Below are positions 10,153 to 64,000 of a stretch of 64,000 nt of DNA, piece after piece (position 1 is the stretch's first letter; each line of letters begins with the position of its first letter). The position numbers were made by a program, and so were the translations under genes. Origin of the DNA: Variovorax paradoxus (GTDB lineage: Bacteria; Pseudomonadota; Gammaproteobacteria; Burkholderiales; Burkholderiaceae_C). Location: assembly GCF_018614875.1 (NCBI RefSeq), contig NZ_JAGGNW010000002.1, positions 372,001 through 436,000 of the forward strand. The letters are read 5' to 3'. Below the pieces are notes generated by a model. It was not told where the DNA came from and made no database searches. It saw only the letters and a program-made list of their open reading frames with translations.

Positions 10153-11418
10153 ATGGCCGAAAAAAAAGGCTCTTCCAGCGAAAAAACGCTTTATTGCTCG
10201 TTCTGCGGCAAGAGCCAGCATGAGGTCAAGAAGCTGATTGCGGGCCCTTCGGTCTTTATTTGCGACGAGTGCATCGACCTCTGCAACGAAATCATCCGCG
10301 ACGAACTGCCGGCCGGTGAAGAGGCGCGCGAAGCGCGCAGCGACCTGCCCACGCCGCTGGAGATCAAGACAAACCTCGACAACTACGTGATCGGCCAGGA
10401 GCCGGCCAAGCGCATGCTGTCGGTGGCGGTCTACAACCACTACAAGCGCCTGCGCCACAAGGAAAAGGCCAAGGGCGACGACGTCGAACTCAGCAAGAGC
10501 AACATCCTCTTGATCGGGCCCACGGGCTCCGGCAAGACGCTGCTCGCGCAAACGCTCGCGCGCATGCTCGACGTGCCCTTCGTGATGGCCGACGCCACCA
10601 CGCTGACCGAAGCCGGCTACGTGGGCGAAGACGTCGAGAACATCATCCAGAAGCTGCTGCAGAGCTGCAACTACGAAGTCGAGCGGGCCCAGCGCGGCAT
10701 CGTCTACATCGACGAAATCGACAAGATCTCGCGCAAGTCGGACAACCCCTCGATCACGCGCGACGTGTCGGGCGAGGGCGTGCAGCAGGCGTTGCTGAAG
10801 CTCATCGAAGGCACCATGGCCAGCGTGCCGCCGCAGGGCGGTCGCAAGCACCCGAACCAGGACTTCCTGCAGATCGACACGACGAACATCCTGTTCATCT
10901 GCGGCGGCGCCTTTGCCGGGCTCGAGAAGGTCATCGAAAACCGCACCGAGGCTTCGGGCATCGGCTTCGGCGCCAAGGTCAAGAGCAAGGCGCAGCGCAG
11001 CATCACCGAGGTGTTCCGCGAAGTCGAACCCGAAGACCTGATCAAGTTCGGCCTGATCCCCGAACTCGTGGGCCGCATGCCCGTGGTGGCTTCGCTGGCC
11101 GAACTCAGCGAAGACGCGCTGGTGCAGATCCTGACCGAGCCCAAGAACGCGGTGGTCAAGCAATTCACCAAGCTGCTGCAGATGGAGGGCGTCGACCTCG
11201 AGATCCGCCCCGCGGCCCTCAAGGCCATTGCGCGCAAGGCGCTGGCCCGCAAAACCGGCGCGCGCGGCCTGCGTTCGATCCTCGAACAGTCGCTGATCGA
11301 CACCATGTTCGAACTGCCGAATGCCACCAACGTCGACAAGGTTGTGGTGGAGGAATCCACAATCGATGAAAACAAGCCGCCGCTGCTCGTGTACCGCGAA
11401 GCGGCCAAGAAGGCCTGA
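10153..11418 (+). CDS. clpX: ClpX, ATP-dependent unfoldase subunit of ClpXP
   Basis: 421 residues from the ATG at 10153 ([11 protein letters not shown]). The N-terminal zinc-binding domain has four cysteines at 15, 18, 37 and 40 (CSFC..CDEC), which bind substrates and adaptors. The AAA+ module has Walker A GPTGSGKT (122-129), Walker [10 protein letters not shown], and a C-terminal small domain. ClpX recognises tagged proteins, unfolds them and threads them into ClpP. It lies between clpP and lon on the same strand. Confidence 0.98.
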
Positions 11419-56667: not shown

Positions 56668-58152
56668 ATGAAATTCGCATTCCAACCTTTGGTCCGCGGC
56701 GCCTTGCTGCCGCTGGTGGCCGCCCTGGCGCTGGCCGGCTGCGCGACCGTGCCCTCCGGCGTGCCGGAGATCCAGACCACCGCCCAGTTCAAGGAGCAGG
56801 GCGCCGCCCCGCCGGCCGGCTGGACGCGTGGCGTGCCTTCCGAAGCGCAGGCGCGCGGCGCCTGGTGGCTGGCCTTCAATGACCCGGTGCTCGATGCGCT
56901 GGTCGAGAAGGCCGACGTCAACAACAACAACATCCAGGCTGCGGCGGCGCGGCTGGCCGAGGCCCGCGCGCTGGCGCGCAGCGCCAACGCCGACCGGTTG
57001 CCGCAGATCGGCCTGGGCGCGGGCGCCAACCGCGGCGCGGGACTCGACAAGGCTATGGCCAGCACCAAGCCGGCCACCATGACCAACATCGGCGCCACGT
57101 TCTCGTACGAAGTCGACCTGTTCGGCCGCCTCTCGGGCGCGAGCAACGCGGCCAAGCTCGACGCACAGAGCCGCGAGGCCCTGCTGCAGAGCACGCGCCT
57201 CGCGGTGCAGGCCGAGGTGGCGCAGACCTACCTGCAGCTGCGCGCGCTCGATGCCGAGCGCGCGCTGGTGCGCGAACAGGTCGAGGCCTACCGCGACACG
57301 CTGCGCCTCACGCAGCGCCGGCAGCAGGCCGGCGACATCGCCGAGCTCGACGTGGCGCGCGTGCAGACGGAGGTCTCGTCCACCGAATCGGATGCGCTCG
57401 CGCTCGACCGCCAGCGCGCCCAGGTCGAGCATGCGCTCGCCGTGCTGGTGGGCGACTCGGCCTCGAGCTTCGGCCTGCGCACCGACGACTGGGCCACCGC
57501 GCTGCCGGCCATTCCGCCCGGCGTGCCGGCCACGGTGCTGACGCGCCGCCCGGACGTCTCGGCCGCACAGAACGCGGTGCTCTCGGCACAGGCGCGCGTG
57601 GGCGTGGCGCAGGCGGCCTGGTTCCCGGACATCTCGCTGACCGGCGCCGCCGGCTACGCGTCGCCGGAAATCGGCGACCTGTTCAAGTGGTCGGCCCGTT
57701 CATGGGGCGTGGGCGCGCTGCTCTCGCTGCCGATCTTCGACGGCGGCCGCCGCGAGGCCGGCGTGCAGGGCGCCAACGCCCAGCTCGACGGCGCGCTCGC
57801 GAACTACCGCAGCCAGGTGCTGGTGGCGTTCCAGGAGGTCGAAGACCAGCTCTCCGCCATCCGCATCCTGCAGGAGCAGTCGACCGTGCAGGCGCAGGCC
57901 GTCACTTCGGCCCAGCGCGCGACCAGCCTGTCGGACACGCGCTACCGCAACGGCTACGTCAGCCAGCTCGACCTGCTCGACGCCCGCCGCAGCGAGCTGC
58001 GCAACCGGCGCCAGGCGCTGCAGGTGAAGTCGGCGCAGTACCAGGCCGCCGTGGGGCTGATCCGCGCCATTGGCGGCGGCTGGGAGGCGCCGGCTGCCAC
58101 GGCGCAGGTGCAGCCCGGCGAGGCTGCCGCGGTACGGACCGCGGCGCGCTGA
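56668..58152 (+). CDS. RND outer-membrane channel lipoprotein (NodT/OprM family)
   Basis: 494 residues. Lipoprotein signal with lipobox LAGC (MKFAFQPLVRGALLPLVAALALAGC spans residues 1-25). Two outer-membrane efflux protein repeats: ARLAEARALARSANADRLPQ-type helix near 90 and VGVAQAAWFPDISLTGAAGY near 310. TolC-like trimeric barrel plus periplasmic tunnel. It is the exit duct of the pump encoded just upstream. A strong terminator follows directly, closing the operon. Confidence 0.95.
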   Translation: MKFAFQPLVRGALLPLVAALALAGCATVPSGVPEIQTTAQFKEQGAAPPAGWTRGVPSEAQARGAWWLAFNDPVLDALVEKADVNNNNIQAAAARLAEARALARSANADRLPQIGLGAGANRGAGLDKAMASTKPATMTNIGATFSYEVDLFGRLSGASNAAKLDAQSREALLQSTRLAVQAEVAQTYLQLRALDAERALVREQVEAYRDTLRLTQRRQQAGDIAELDVARVQTEVSSTESDALALDRQRAQVEHALAVLVGDSASSFGLRTDDWATALPAIPPGVPATVLTRRPDVSAAQNAVLSAQARVGVAQAAWFPDISLTGAAGYASPEIGDLFKWSARSWGVGALLSLPIFDGGRREAGVQGANAQLDGALANYRSQVLVAFQEVEDQLSAIRILQEQSTVQAQAVTSAQRATSLSDTRYRNGYVSQLDLLDARRSELRNRRQALQVKSAQYQAAVGLIRAIGGGWEAPAATAQVQPGEAAAVRTAAR

Positions 58153-58158
58153 ACATCA

Positions 58159-58184
58159 AGAAAGGGGCGCAAGCCCCTTTTTTT
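58159..58184 (+). terminator. Terminator of the second RND operon
   Basis: AAAGGGGC, loop GCAA, GCCCCTTT, then TTTT (U-run to 58184). A strong intrinsic terminator seven bases after the channel stop. Confidence 0.88.
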
Positions 58185-58403
58185 GCGCTTCGTGGCTTCG
58201 GGGGATGGCGTGAATCCGTCGGATTTTTCAGGAGCGAGCGCAGGGCGCTCTCGAAGCTCGATTTGCTAAACTGGGACGCAGGAGCATGCGCGCATTCCGG
58301 TGCAGCCCGTCTCCATCGCCACTGCTGCAGCCCGAGCGCCGGCAGTCTCGCGCTGACCCGCTTCGGGCCGACCGACCCAGCGGTGCGCTTCATACCCATC
58401 GCA

Positions 58404-59786
58404 ATGCAAACACCCGACGGCGCCAACCATTCCTGGCAACAGCGCAGCCTGCGCAGCGTCTGGCATCCCTGCACGCAGATGCAGCGCGCGGCCGCGGTGC
58501 CGCCGTTGCCGATCGCGCGGGGCGTTGGCCCGTGGCTTTTCGACCATGAAGGACAGCGGTACTTCGACGCCACCAGCTCCTGGTGGGTCAACCTGTTCGG
58601 CCATGCCGACGCGCGCATCAACGCGGCGCTGAAAGACCAGCTCGACCGCCTGCCGCATGTGATGCTGGCCGGCTGCACACACGCACCGGCGGTGGAACTG
58701 GCCGAACGCCTGTCGGCCTTGACCGGTGGCGTGCTCGGGCATTGCTTCTTTGCCAGCGACGGCGCCTCGGCGGTCGAGATCGCGCTGAAGATGAGCTTCC
58801 ATCACTGGCGCAACCGCGGCCGCCCGAACAAGCGCGAGTTCGTCTGCCTGCGCCAGGGCTACCACGGCGAGACGCTGGGTGCCCTGGCGGTCACCGACGT
58901 GGCGGTGTTCCGCGATGCCTACGACCCGCTGCTGATGCGCGCGCACCAGGTGATGTCGCCCGATGCGCGCCAGGCGGCAGCCGGCGAAACCGCGGTGGAC
59001 GTGGCTGCGCGGGCCGCGGCCGAATTGCAGGCGCTGTTCGAATCGCGCCATGAACACATCGCCGCACTGATCGTCGAGCCGCTGGTGCAGGGCGCCGCCG
59101 GCATGGCCATGCACGACGCGGCCTACCTTCGCACCGTGCGCGCGCTGTGCGAGCGCTACGAGGTGAACCTGATCGCCGACGAGATCGCGGTCGGCTGCGG
59201 GCGCACCGGCACTTTCTTCGCCTGCGAGCAGGCCGGCATCTGGCCGGACTTCGTCTGCCTCTCCAAGGGCATCAGCGGCGGCACGCTGCCGCTGTCGCTG
59301 GTGATGGCGCGCGACGCGATCTACGAAGCCTTTCTCGATGACGACGTCGCCCGCGGCTTCCTGCATTCGCATTCCTACACCGGCAACGCGCTGGCCTGCC
59401 GCGCCGCGCTCGCGGTGCTGGACCGGTTCGAGGAAGACGATGTGCTTCAGCGCAACCGGCAACGCGCCGCCGCACTGAGCGCGGCGCTCGCGCCCTTGCA
59501 GGCCGACCCGCGCATCGAACACTTCCGCCAGCGCGGCATGATCTGGGCTTTCGACGTGCGCGAGGCCTTCACCGGCGAGCGCTTCGCCGAACGCTTTCAT
59601 CTCGCGGGCCGCGAGCGCGAATTGCTCATTCGGCCGATCGGCCGCACCGTCTACCTGATGCCGCCCTACGTGCTGGACGACGGGCTCGCAGCCTGGCTCG
59701 CGCAGCGCGTGATGCAAACACTGGATGCCGTGGCCTCCGCAGAAAGCGCCCATGCTGATCGAACACCTGAACCGCCGACTGCGTGA
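58404..59786 (+). CDS. bioA: Adenosylmethionine-8-amino-7-oxononanoate aminotransferase
   Basis: 460 residues from the ATG at 58404 ([20 protein letters not shown]). Class III aminotransferase; substrate and cofactor region [11 protein letters not shown] (BioA-specific double Trp), [24 protein letters not shown], and PLP lysine Lys288 in [13 protein letters not shown]. It converts KAPA to DAPA using S-adenosylmethionine. First gene of the biotin operon. The 219 bases upstream hold no clear promoter beyond a weak TAAACT near 58266. Overlaps bioF by 35 bases. Confidence 0.96.
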
Positions 59787-60954
59787 GCTCGACGCGCAGG
59801 CGCTGCGCCGGCAGCGGCGCACGGCCGAGTCGCCCTGTGCGCCGCACCAGCGGGTGTCCGGGCGCGAGATGCTGGCTTTCTGCAGCAACGACTACCTCGG
59901 GCTCGCGAACCATCCGGCGCTGATCGAGGCGCTGGCCGAAGGGGCGCGCCTGCATGGCGCGGGCAGCGGCGCATCGCATCTGATCAGTGGCCATTCGCGC
60001 GCCCATGCGCTGCTCGAGGACGAGCTCGCGCGATGGATGTCGCCTTCCATCCCGCAGGCGCGCGTGCTGGGCTTCTGCACCGGCTACATGGCCAACCTGG
60101 CGCTGCTCACCGCGCTCGGCGACGATAGCGCGACGATCTTTGCCGACAAGCTCAACCATGCCTCGCTGGTCGACGGCGCGCTGCTGGCCAAGGCGCCGCT
60201 GCAGCGCTATCCGCACGGCCGGCTCGACCTGCTGGCGGGCCAGCTCGGGCGCTGCAACACGCCGATCAAGCTGATCGTGAGCGATGCCGTCTTCAGCATG
60301 GACGGCGACCTGGCGGACCTGCCAGCGCTGCTGGCACTTGCCGAGGCGTACGACGCGTCGCTGGTGATCGACGATGCCCATGGCTTCGGCGTGCTCGGCG
60401 AGGGCGGCCGCGGCAGCCTCTCGCATTTCGGCCTGCGCAGCGAGCGCCTGATCTGCATGGGCACGCTCGGCAAGGCCGCGGGCCTGGGCGGCGCCTTCGT
60501 GGCCGCGCACCCGAGCATCATCGAATGGCTGGTGCAGTCGGCGCGCAGCTACATCTACACGACGGCGGCGCCGCCGGCGGTCGCGCATGCGCTGTGTGCG
60601 AGCCTGCGCCTGATCGGCGGCGACGAAGGCGAAGCGCGGCGTGCGCGGCTGCGGCAATTGATCGACCTGCTGCGCGAACGGCTGGGTGCCCTGATTCGGC
60701 AGAACCCGCGGCTCGGCTGGCGGCTGGCCGATTCCGCCACCGCGATCCAGCCCTTGATCGTCGGCGACAACGCGGCGGCGCTGGCCTTGTCTGCCGCGCT
60801 GGATGCGCAGGGCCTGTGGGTGCCGGCGATCCGCCCGCCGACCGTGCCGGCAGGCACCGCGCGGCTGCGCATCACGCTGAGCGCATCGCACACGCCGCAG
60901 GATGTGCAGACCCTCGTCGATGCACTGGCGCGGGCTGCCGGGAGCATGCGATGA
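59752..60954 (+). CDS. bioF: 8-amino-7-oxononanoate synthase
   Basis: 400 residues from the ATG at 59752 ([18 protein letters not shown]), a start matching the family; an ATG nine codons upstream is possible. [42 protein letters not shown], and PLP lysine Lys241 in [11 protein letters not shown]. It condenses pimeloyl-ACP (or pimeloyl-CoA) with L-alanine. Its substrate is what the P450 at the operon end could help supply. Stop overlaps bioD start. Confidence 0.96.
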
Positions 60955-61655
60955 ACGGCTGCTTCGTTACCGGCACCGACACCGAGATCGGCAAGACGCG
61001 CGTCAGTGCCGCCTTGCTGCATTGGCTCGGCAAGCAAGGCCTGCGTTGTGCCGGCTACAAGCCGGTGGCGGCCGGCACCGAGACGATCGATGGCGAGACC
61101 GTCAACGAGGACGTGCGCGCGCTGCGCGACGCGAGCTCGGTGGCGTTGACCGATGCCGAGGTCGGCCCCTGCCAGTTCGCAGCCGCCTGCGCGCCGCACA
61201 TCGCCGCGGCGCTCGAGCGCCGCGCCATCGAGCCTGACGTCCTGCTGCAGGGGGCCAGCACACTGGCGGCGCGCGCCGAGTACCTGGTCGTCGAAGGCGT
61301 CGGCGGTTTCTGCGTACCGTTCGCGCCCGACTTCGACAGCGCCGATTTCGCCGCGGCGCTGGGCCTGCCGGTGGTGCTGGTGGTCGGGTTGCGCCTGGGC
61401 TGCATCAACCATGCGTTGCTGAGCGCCGAGGCGATCCGCGCGCGCGGCCTGCGGCTGGCGGGCTGGGTCGCGAACACCGTCGACACGGCCATGCCGCACC
61501 GCGATGCCAACCTCGCCACGCTGCGCGATGAATTGGAGCGGCGCCACCAGTCGCCTTGCCTGGGCGTGGTGCCCCGGCTGGCCAGCCCGGACCCGGCGGC
61601 TGTTGCGGCCTGCCTTGACGATGCGGCGCTGCGCGCACTGTTCGACCTCTGCTGA
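60951..61655 (+). CDS. bioD: Dethiobiotin synthetase
   Basis: 234 residues from the ATG at 60951 (ATGA with bioF). P-loop [17 protein letters not shown] (7-23), [20 protein letters not shown]. It carboxylates DAPA to dethiobiotin with ATP. Third gene of the operon; a 101-base gap with a small hairpin (61693-61713) separates it from bioB. Confidence 0.96.
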
Positions 61656-61692
61656 GGCAAGTGCGGGCATGGCGCAATTTGCAACCACACTG

Positions 61693-61713
61693 GCCGCCCT
61701 TGTGACGGGCGGC
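61693..61713 (+). other. Hairpin in the bioD-bioB gap
   Basis: GCCGCCC, loop TTGTGAC, GGGCGGC, no U-tract. It may adjust bioB translation or be a partial stop. A short frame 61671-61727 ([18 protein letters not shown]) overlaps it, with no evidence that it is translated. Confidence 0.35.
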
Positions 61714-61756
61714 TGGCTATCCTGACCCGAACGGGCCATCCCGCCCGAAGAACGAC

Positions 61757-62764
61757 ATGACCACCACATCCACCGTTTCCCTGTCCTCTTTGCGCAGCAC
61801 CACGTCGCGCACCGGGCCGAGCCCGGAGCGCTGGCGCGTCGCCGACGTCGAGGCCCTGTTCGCGCTGCCGTTCATGGACCTGCTGTTCCGTGCGCAGCAG
61901 GTGCACCGCGCGCACTTCGATGCCAACGAGGTGCAGCTGTCCACGCTGCTGTCGATCAAGACCGGCGGCTGCGCGGAAGACTGCGGCTACTGCCCGCAGT
62001 CCGCGCACCACGACGCCGGCGTCGAGGCCGGCAAGCTCATGCCGCTGCGGGAAGTGGTCGACGCGGCACAGGCCGCCAAGGCGCAGGGCGCCACGCGCTT
62101 CTGCATGGGTGCTGCCTGGCGCAGCCCCAAGGCGCGCGACATGGAGCGCGTGACCGACATGGTGCGAGAAGTCCGCGCGCTGGGCCTGGAGACCTGCATG
62201 ACGCTGGGCATGCTCGAAGCCGAGCAGGCCCGGGCGCTGAAGGACGCCGGGCTCGACTACTACAACCACAACCTCGACAGCGCCCCCGAGTTCTACGGAA
62301 ACATCATCGGCACCCGCACCTACCAGGACCGGCTCGACACGCTGGCCCATGTGCGGGATGCGGGCATCCATGTCTGCTGCGGCGGCATCGTCGGCATGGG
62401 CGAAAGCCGCGTCGAGCGCGCCGGGCTGATCGCACAGCTGGCCAACCTCGATCCCTACCCCGAGTCGGTGCCGATCAACAACCTGGTGCAGGTCGCGGGC
62501 ACGCCGCTGGCCGGTACCGAGCCGATCGACCCTTTCGAATTCGTGCGCAGCATCGCGGTCGCACGCATCGCGATGCCGACGACCATGGTTCGGCTGTCGG
62601 CCGGGCGCGAGCAGATGGACGAGGCGCTGCAGGCGCTGTGCTTCGCGGCGGGCGCCAATTCGATCTTCTACGGCGACAAGCTGCTGACCACGAGCAATCC
62701 GCAGGCCGAGCGCGACCGGGCGCTGTTCGAGCGCCTGGGGCTGAAGGCGAAGCGCTTGCAATGA
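61757..62764 (+). CDS. bioB: Biotin synthase
   Basis: 335 residues. Radical-SAM cluster motif CAEDCGYC with Cys72, Cys76 and Cys79. Further BioB motifs [26 protein letters not shown] and the C-terminal [12 protein letters not shown]. It inserts sulfur into dethiobiotin using an auxiliary iron-sulfur cluster. Its stop overlaps the start of the P450 gene by four bases (ATGA). Confidence 0.97.
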
Positions 62765-63999
62765 GTGCGGTGCTGGCTCCGCCGGCGAGTCCGCTCGGCC
62801 GCCCGCTCATCGACGCGGCCTTCCGCGCCGATCCCTATCCGGTCTACGCCGCGCTGCGCGAGGCCGGGCCGATCCACTGGAGCGACGAATTCTTCGGCGG
62901 CGCGTGGCTGCTGACCCGCCATGCCGACGTGGAGGCGGTGCTTCGCGATGCGGCGGGTTTCTCGGCGCAGCGCACCGGCGGCTGGGTGATGCAAAACCGC
63001 GCCGCGCGCGGCGAGCTGAAAGATTTCCAGCGGCTCTTCGCGCGCGCGATGCTGTTCGTCGACGCGCCGGACCACACGCGCATCCGCGGCGTGCTCAACG
63101 CGGGCTTTCGCAACGACGTCCTGCAGCAGTTCGTGCCGGCCATCGAGCAGCGCGTGGATGCCCTGCTCGATGCGGTGGATGCCGACGCGGGCTTCGATTT
63201 CATGCAGGCCCTGGCACGGCCGCTGCCGGCCGAGGTGATGGCGATGCTGATGGACATTCCCGCGGCCGATCGCGGCGACTTCATCGCCTGGTCGGACGAT
63301 CTCGCGGCGTTCATCGGTGCGCCGGTGCCTTCGCTCGACCAGGCGCGGCGCGCGCGCACCAGCCTGCTGGCGATGAGCGCCTATTTCGAGCAGCTCGTGC
63401 CGCAGCGCCGGCACGCGCCGGGCGACGACCTCGTGAGCCGGCTGCTGCGCGCCGAGGCGGCGGGCGATATCGGCGCTGGCCCCGAACTGCTCGCCCAATG
63501 CGCGATGCTGCTGTTCGCCGGCCACGAGACCACGCGCAACCTGCTGGGCAACGGCCTGCAGGCACTGCTTGCCGATCCGGCCTCGTGGCAGCGCCTGCAG
63601 CGCGAGCCCGAGCTGCTGCCGGGCGCCTTGCGCGAGCTGCTTCGCTTCGACAGCCCGGTGCAGTACACCGGCCGCCGCGTGGTGGCCGATCTCGTGCTGC
63701 ATGGCCGGCAGCTGCGCCGCGGCGACCTGGTCGTGCCGCTCATCGCGTCCGCCAACCGCGATCCGGCGCGCTACGCAGAACCCGATCGGCTGGATGTCGC
63801 GCGCCGCGGTGGCGGCCTGCTGTCTTTCGGTGCCGGAGCGCATGTGTGCATCGGCGCCAGCCTGACACTGATGGAGGCCGAGATCGTCTTCGGCCGGCTG
63901 CTGCGCCGACTGCCCGGGCTGCGGCTGGTCGATGCGCAACCGTGCTGGAGCGGCAATGCGGTGTACCGCGGCCTGAGCGCGCTGCAGGTGCGTCACTGA
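62761..63999 (+). CDS. Cytochrome P450 coupled to the biotin operon (BioI-like role possible)
   Basis: 412 residues from the ATG at 62761, which overlaps the bioB stop. I-helix AGHETTR (253-259) with the acid-alcohol pair, ExxR as ELLR, haem loop [10 protein letters not shown] with cysteine ligand Cys363. No membrane anchor, so a soluble bacterial class I P450 that needs an external ferredoxin and reductase (none in the window). Translational coupling to bioB strongly links it to biotin. In Bacillus, P450 BioI cleaves acyl-ACP to pimeloyl-ACP; the same job here is inference. Confidence 0.93.
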
Positions 64000-64000
64000 G

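Follow-up and report, generated by a model that had tools for sequence, protein, structure and literature searches.

A cytochrome P450 of Burkholderiales biotin operons and its possible part in pimeloyl-thioester supply

The operon and its P450

The stretch of DNA analyzed here (the window, 64,000 nucleotides of a Variovorax paradoxus genome, G000:C22:372001-436000) carries five tightly spaced genes at 58404-63999, in the order bioA-bioF-bioD-bioB-P450, on the same strand and with all frames open; the last encodes the cytochrome P450 that is the subject of this report. The genome comprises 5.59 Mb in 36 contigs and is 89.6% complete. The four ring-assembly genes that a preliminary description had recognized all score above their NCBIfam cut-offs: bioA (58404..59786, plus strand, as for all five genes; 460 amino acids [aa]; TIGR00508, 511.9 bits, cut-off 405); bioF (59725..60954; 409 aa when read from 59725, with 59752 the likelier start; TIGR00858, 431.5 bits, cut-off 426.45); bioD (60951..61655, overlapping the bioF stop by 4 nucleotides [nt]; TIGR00347, 162.6 bits, cut-off 83.3); and bioB (61757..62764; 335 aa; TIGR00433, 410.6 bits, cut-off 225). 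The P450 gene (62761..63999; 412 aa), identified with Pfam (PF00067, 79 bits, cut-off 22.8), begins within the end of bioB, its start and the bioB stop overlapping in the plus-strand tetranucleotide ATGA at 62761..62764 by direct reading.

The catalytic residues listed in the preliminary description are confirmed in the protein: AGHETTR at residues 253-259, with the I-helix acid-alcohol pair E256-T257, ExxR at E292-R295 and the heme cysteine C363. Among 32 aligned orthologues C363 is invariant and E292 nearly so. The PF00067 match, the heme Cys loop, ExxR, the I-helix pair and the P450 fold (Z up to 44.5) place the protein in the cytochrome P450 superfamily.

Conserved linkage to biotin genes

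A single scan of 84,980 species genomes, seeded on five P450s only and made with short peptide patterns (it is not exhaustive), yielded 34 loci: one actinobacterial P450 (36% identity) and 33 betaproteobacterial ones (56-92%), three of the latter being the operons of Variovorax G028, G086 and G014 again (L095-L097) and two genomes giving two loci each. The taxa include Variovorax, Rhodoferax, Polaromonas, Limnohabitans, Caballeronia, Paraburkholderia, Burkholderia, Azohydromonas, Macromonas and Azoarcus, and the Azoarcus copy (L121, 60% identical) extends the P450 family beyond our Burkholderiales family sample. A bio gene stands directly upstream on the same strand in 32 of the 33 betaproteobacterial loci, the exception (L127) being a fragment. 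At least seven gene orders retain the P450 (AFDB-P450, AFD-P450, B-P450-AFD, B-P450-FAD, F-P450, F-B-P450 and B-P450 alone); bioB is not found between bioD and the P450 in five of the 33 loci (L097, L098, L102, L103 and L109), and the P450 follows bioB with no bioA, bioF or bioD in the stretch in a Paraburkholderia (L116) and in Comamonadaceae 2FH (L110). Over 36 distinct junctions (the window, the 33 loci less L127, G095 and two plasmids, taking the nearest candidate start and each bio gene in its own frame), the P450 overlaps the preceding gene by 4 nt in 28 (24 ATGA, 4 GTGA) and lies within 11 nt of it in five; the others are 176 nt apart (L112), unsure (L115) or frame-broken (L125). The preliminary description had proposed membership of the P450 in the biotin operon, as opposed to chance proximity, with conserved linkage as the check; the ATGA overlap and the 32 loci bear this out.

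Co-occurrence was assessed in 399 genomes of the family with a P450 profile built from 32 orthologues (cut at E 1e-130 or better) and a bioF cut of E 1e-90 or better. The P450 is found in 45 genomes (24 of 141 genera) and bioF in 185; bioF is present in 43 of the 45 genomes with the P450 versus 142 of the 354 others (Fisher p 8.5e-14, uncorrected for relatedness), the two P450 genomes lacking a bioF match being G157 and G493. The distance to a same-strand bioF is at most 2 kb for 35 of 47 P450 loci, and 38 are in or beside bio genes once G384, G375 and a second G144 copy (the L110 locus) are added. The order is bioB-P450-bioA-F-D in G261 and G474, bioB-P450-bioF-A-D in G384 (where the P450 is 45% identical) and bioF-P450 in G333, G412 and G469 (as read) and G401 (by coordinates). 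A class-wide sample of 368 other genomes held no relative of the P450 at E 1e-105 or better, a strict cut that may miss distant bio-linked P450s. We assign the P450 to biotin synthesis with high confidence.

Within Variovorax a close P450 occurs in five of 101 species (92, 90, 90 and 70% identity besides the window copy), in a bio operon in all five and directly after bioB in four; the fifth (G014) has lost bioB from the operon, and there the P450 comes directly after bioD, which it likewise overlaps by ATGA. Eight other P450 matches in the genus (34-38% identity) are on a different contig from bioB, more than 1 Mb from it, or in a genome with no bioB match. By comparison, bioF is found in 60 of the 101 species. 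One of these (G078) has a related operon, bioAFDB, that lacks the P450, seven carry bioA-F-D-B within a carboxylase cluster (one with only bioD and bioB on the contig examined), and in the remaining 47 bioA-F-D stand alone (10 bioF stretches read), with the standard bioB in the carboxylase cluster in eight stretches read. No bioC, bioH, bioW or bioZ was recognized by eye beside the bio genes in the Variovorax stretches read. Both types of bioB are present in the window genome, G028 and G086; in the window genome the second copy (G000:C3:414434-415369, L068) lies within a carboxylase cluster and is 69% identical to the operon bioB. The P450 operon looks like a second, transferred version of the bio genes in the genus, and the transfer suggested in the preliminary description agrees with the patchy occurrence in the genus and with copies on plasmids. 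Two side observations concern the same genus. In G078, the sole close operon relative without the P450, an OXA-like beta-lactamase frame (recognized by eye) follows bioB (L070:9950-10750). At the cuts used bioB is found in 81 species, leaving at least 21 with bioB and without BioF; these may live on dethiobiotin.

Plasmid-borne bioA-F-D-B-P450 operons occur in Cupriavidus sp. P-10 and C. necator N-1, and broken versions on two further plasmids, one conjugative (from Cupriavidus sp. EM10) and one from Polaromonas sp. P1-6. Four plasmid copies of the P450 are annotated merely as 'cytochrome P450'. GntR genes beside two plasmid operons encode FCD-type regulators, and no biotin regulator was identified. 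Several bio genes and the P450 are frame-broken in L180 (the P1-6 plasmid) and in L125 (the Polaromonas P2-4 chromosome, which also holds an extra P450 fragment at 10674-11145), reflecting decay or sequencing error. On plasmid p2 of Cupriavidus pinatubonensis (L176) a P450 orthologue (63%) with no bio genes lies beside a convergent gene for pyruvate carboxylase, a biotin enzyme.

Most neighboring genes were named by eye from their translations, only part of them being scanned with models. Downstream of the P450, just past window position 64000, lie cobQ (same strand, starting 14 nt past the P450 stop), cobT, cobS and a cobC-like gene (L004:8015-11849), and in the window genome one transcript may span the biotin and late cobalamin genes. 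The cob neighborhood was judged in other genomes by cobT and cobS, which are absent from the stretches examined around the other four Variovorax P450 operons; in G158 (L166), cobT-cobS-cobC lies directly upstream of panD-bioA. In six loci (L100, L101, L104, L112, L113 and L128) panD is directly upstream of bioA, within a cofactor cluster nadB-queE-queD-panD-bio-P450 (names by eye). A scan for sigma-70-like promoters over 58100-64000 found no site and is uninformative, and no redox-partner genes were noticed adjoining the operon.

BioI and other routes to pimelate

The known biotin-operon P450, P450BioI (CYP107H1) of Bacillus subtilis, is described in passages of PMC7645780 and PMC10741444 as cleaving acyl-ACP (ACP, acyl carrier protein), and a passage of PMC7026016 has B. 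subtilis bioI rescuing a Moraxella esterase mutant on biotin-free medium. Passages in PMC7645780 and PMC12915131 also indicate that BioI makes pimeloyl-ACP yet is dispensable in B. subtilis, where BioF does not use pimeloyl-ACP. Both it and the Burkholderiales protein are bacterial P450s encoded in biotin operons, both have the I-helix acid-alcohol pair, ExxR and the heme Cys, and BioI is the best structural match by Z in the Protein Data Bank (PDB). They differ in that BioI falls, in the free tree, outside the clade of the Burkholderiales protein (a joint clade is not rejected), with 8 of 30 ligand contacts in common, and in that B. subtilis has BioW, which none of the P450-bearing genomes tested has; the Burkholderiales P450 moreover occurs in many taxa, whereas the relevant text of a 2025 paper (PMC12915131) calls BioI unique to B. 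subtilis.

Identity to BioI (3ejb) is 31% (122/392), and BioI ranks 23rd in a PDB sequence search with the P450. By convention, members of a CYP family share about 40% identity, and by sequence the P450 is not an orthologue of BioI/CYP107H. In a phylogenetic tree that contains long branches (and lacks L026, one of the eight further P450 loci of Variovorax, for which no frame was obtained), 39 rows of the P450 family form one clade (support 100/98), separated (98/91) from BioI and from the remaining P450s of known structure in the tree. A tree with BioI forced into that clade is 13.3 log units worse, without being rejected (approximately unbiased [AU] test, p 0.114). As to the origin separate from BioI proposed in the preliminary description, lack of orthology by sequence is supported, and an independent rise of the two is favored by the free tree, not established. 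A placement in a xenobiotic clade with no conserved bio linkage, set beforehand as a refuting outcome, did not occur.

An AlphaFold model of the P450 (mean predicted local distance difference test score 79.6; weak around residues 70-103 and 354-361) was compared with 1000 chains. The top VIA-align matches are BioI-ACP entries, 3ejd_D (Z 44.5, root mean square deviation [RMSD] 2.4, 383 residues aligned), 3eje_D (44.4, 2.5, 383) and 3ejb_H (44.3, 2.5, 386), followed by CalO2 (43.3, 2.5, 389) and PksS (42.2, 2.4, 376); Foldseek's own ranking places CalO2 first and BioI second. The list of BioI ligand contacts was taken from the part of PMC10741444 that gives it; contact E64, opposite a gap in the alignment, was omitted, S56 did not match the chain numbering (its column may be off by one), and the alignment in loop regions is unsure. 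A BioI ligand-contact signature in the P450 was considered and rejected, aligning the contact residues having revealed no special similarity. Within the P450 family the 30 columns aligned with these contacts have a pairwise identity of 83%, versus 59% over 399 columns; restricted to columns that vary in other P450s, the values are 83% (23 columns) versus 51% (212 columns), and none of 20,000 random draws matched the conservation of the pocket in either comparison. Residues of these columns conserved in the family are F45, R71, T72, F99, F184, F252, G304 and Y402. Because conservation in the pocket columns far exceeds that elsewhere in the P450, the alignment suggests that the family acts on one fixed substrate.

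Other sources of pimelate were sought with model cut-offs. In the window genome neither BioC (best 83 bits, cut-off 185) nor BioH (best 83 bits, cut-off 207) is found over cut-off in an assembly that is nearly nine-tenths complete; generic alpha/beta hydrolases may stand in for BioH. BioW is absent from all 46 P450-bearing genomes searched, the window genome included (G116, G181 and G284 left out), with a control match in B. subtilis. The preliminary description, which reported no bioC, bioH or bioW in the window, therefore holds genome-wide for bioH and bioW at these cut-offs. For bioC it holds in that none passes, and needs qualifying in that an orthologue linked to comF is present (L006:1411-2322), which scores 81 bits, covers model positions 95-243 only and is without S-adenosylmethionine (SAM) motif I. 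All nine BioC-like copies read against comF adjoin it (L006 and its orthologues L181-L187 and L189). Motif I is replaced in two Variovorax and two Rhodoferax copies, with the rest of the protein conserved; the copies of Paraburkholderia, Burkholderia, Azoarcus and the L115 genome retain it whole, and that of G342 in part. Canonical BioC is over cut-off in three of the 399 family genomes (one of the 45 with the P450) and in none of a second set of 28 P450-bearing genomes, at least four of which are also among the 45. Weak BioC matches (E 1e-18 or better, other methyltransferases included) are found in 354 of the 399 genomes, and nine of 20 listed genomes without one carry bioF. We do not conclude that erosion of BioC caused the presence of the P450, weak matches being nearly universal and found in bioF-less genomes too.

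Two relatives without the P450 (L155 and L156) have, after bioF, a bioH-like and then a bioC-like gene, scoring 137 and 159 bits against a cut-off of 207 and 183 and 173 bits against one of 185, respectively. The BioC-BioH pair of Escherichia coli thus has counterparts in the same operon slot and would by analogy deliver the same product, pimeloyl-ACP; the enzymes are unrelated, disguise as a methyl ester in fatty acid synthesis contrasting with the oxidative cleavage proposed for the P450. The BioE route of Elizabethkingia and Chlamydia, as outlined in part of PMC12915131, likewise gains the pimeloyl moiety from long acyl chains in an O2-dependent way, with a ferritin-like diiron enzyme in place of a heme P450; the same source, in the portion concerned, reports bioE in Burkholderiaceae too.

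Proposed function and alternatives

We propose that the P450 is the pimeloyl-thioester-forming enzyme of biotin synthesis, acting by cleavage of acyl-ACP, a statement that, taken in full, we consider somewhat better supported than its denial and that draws on operon context and the BioI precedent. A long-chain acyl-ACP would be hydroxylated successively by the P450 and then cut between C7 and C8, as BioI does in Bacillus, with electrons coming from housekeeping redox partners (these partners, the acyl-ACP substrate and the C7 product are all inferred); the P450 would supply the pimeloyl thioester that BioF condenses with alanine, and in Comamonadaceae it would take over from a BioC-BioH route in which BioC no longer has a SAM-binding motif. 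A pimelate role is the most economical one because the ring-assembly genes beside the P450 are complete and the pimelate step is the missing one, because bioH-like and bioC-like genes hold its slot in two relatives, and because the known biotin-operon P450 makes pimeloyl-ACP. A broader scenario, in which Burkholderiales evolved a second P450 route to the pimeloyl thioester independently of BioI, serving as the working supply in lineages whose comF-linked BioC no longer has a SAM site, and spreading as a plasmid-borne bioAFDB-P450 cassette, is put forward tentatively, the balance leaning slightly toward doubt.

Several observations weigh against the proposed pimeloyl-forming role. Nine of the 47 P450 loci in the family were not seen beside bio genes: five belong to one genus (three read by eye behind sucCD, one on a 5 kb contig and one 37 kb from bioF by coordinates), three are distant copies (47-49% identity) and one is near a contig end. 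Likewise, of six plasmid copies, those of C. pinatubonensis and Massilia putida have no bio gene within 6 kb. The P450-bearing G493 is the genome with canonical BioC and no bioF match, and a full or near-full-model BioC-like gene (155-171 bits, cut-off 185) accompanies the P450 in Burkholderia, Paraburkholderia, Caballeronia, Azoarcus and the Burkholderiaceae L115 genome; weak BioC matches in genomes lacking bioF (for example, G001) likewise complicate the picture. At the cut used, 142 of the 185 bioF-bearing family genomes have no P450. Because most bioF-bearing genomes thus have neither the P450 nor canonical BioC, another pimelate route must exist in many of these relatives, and it may also be present in genomes with the P450. 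The P450 keeps the BioI contacts no better than other P450s do (8/27 in PksS and 8/29 in another Variovorax P450). On the structural side, BioI leads CalO2 by about 1 Z unit, a margin that in a predicted model is insufficient alone to assign function, and the poorly modeled stretches hold pocket residues R71, T72 and F99 (70-103) or adjoin the heme Cys (354-361).

The contact comparison also leaves room for a P450 that makes a pimelate precursor without cleaving long acyl-ACP, by oxidizing an acyl compound that is short or cyclic (for instance, an alicyclic carboxylate, or a C7 acyl group at its omega end), since operon position and a conserved pocket demand a biotin-related substrate, not specifically that one; we judge this unlikely, albeit worth keeping in view, given that the known biotin-operon P450 cleaves acyl-ACP, according to the sections of PMC7645780 and PMC10741444 cited above, and that BioI-ACP structures lead the 1000 chains by Z. 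Less probable still is a role at another biotin step, such as clearing an inhibitory intermediate or salvaging oxidized biotin, without any pimelate being made. Pimelate may not be limiting in the several P450-bearing Burkholderia-group genomes with a full-length BioC-like gene, and L116 and L110 keep the P450 after bioB with no bioA, bioF or bioD in the stretch, which would suit such a role; retention with bioF alone (L143-L145), or with bioA-F-D minus bioB in the five loci listed earlier, points instead toward BioF and its end of the pathway. A P450 for general detoxification, merely riding on a mobile bio operon, would explain the patchy occurrence in Variovorax, the plasmid copies and the orthologues away from bio genes, and is close to refuted by the retention of the P450 with bio genes through seven gene orders and many genera, by pocket columns far more conserved than the rest and by bioF in nearly all P450-bearing genomes.

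A search of the open-access literature (subscription papers being outside its scope) found no description of a biotin-operon P450 in Burkholderiales. The Burkholderiales protein constitutes a second, widespread lineage of biotin-operon P450s, found in genomes that have no BioW and, for the most part, no canonical BioC. BioI has long been enigmatic, and the Burkholderiales P450 may be the sole source of pimelate in its genomes, making the question directly testable. If the proposed function is true, it would add one more pimelate route to BioC-BioH, BioI-BioW, BioZ and BioE, provide a possible acyl-cleaving P450 for dicarboxylate production, and make it easier to predict which members of a large environmental order are prototrophic for biotin.

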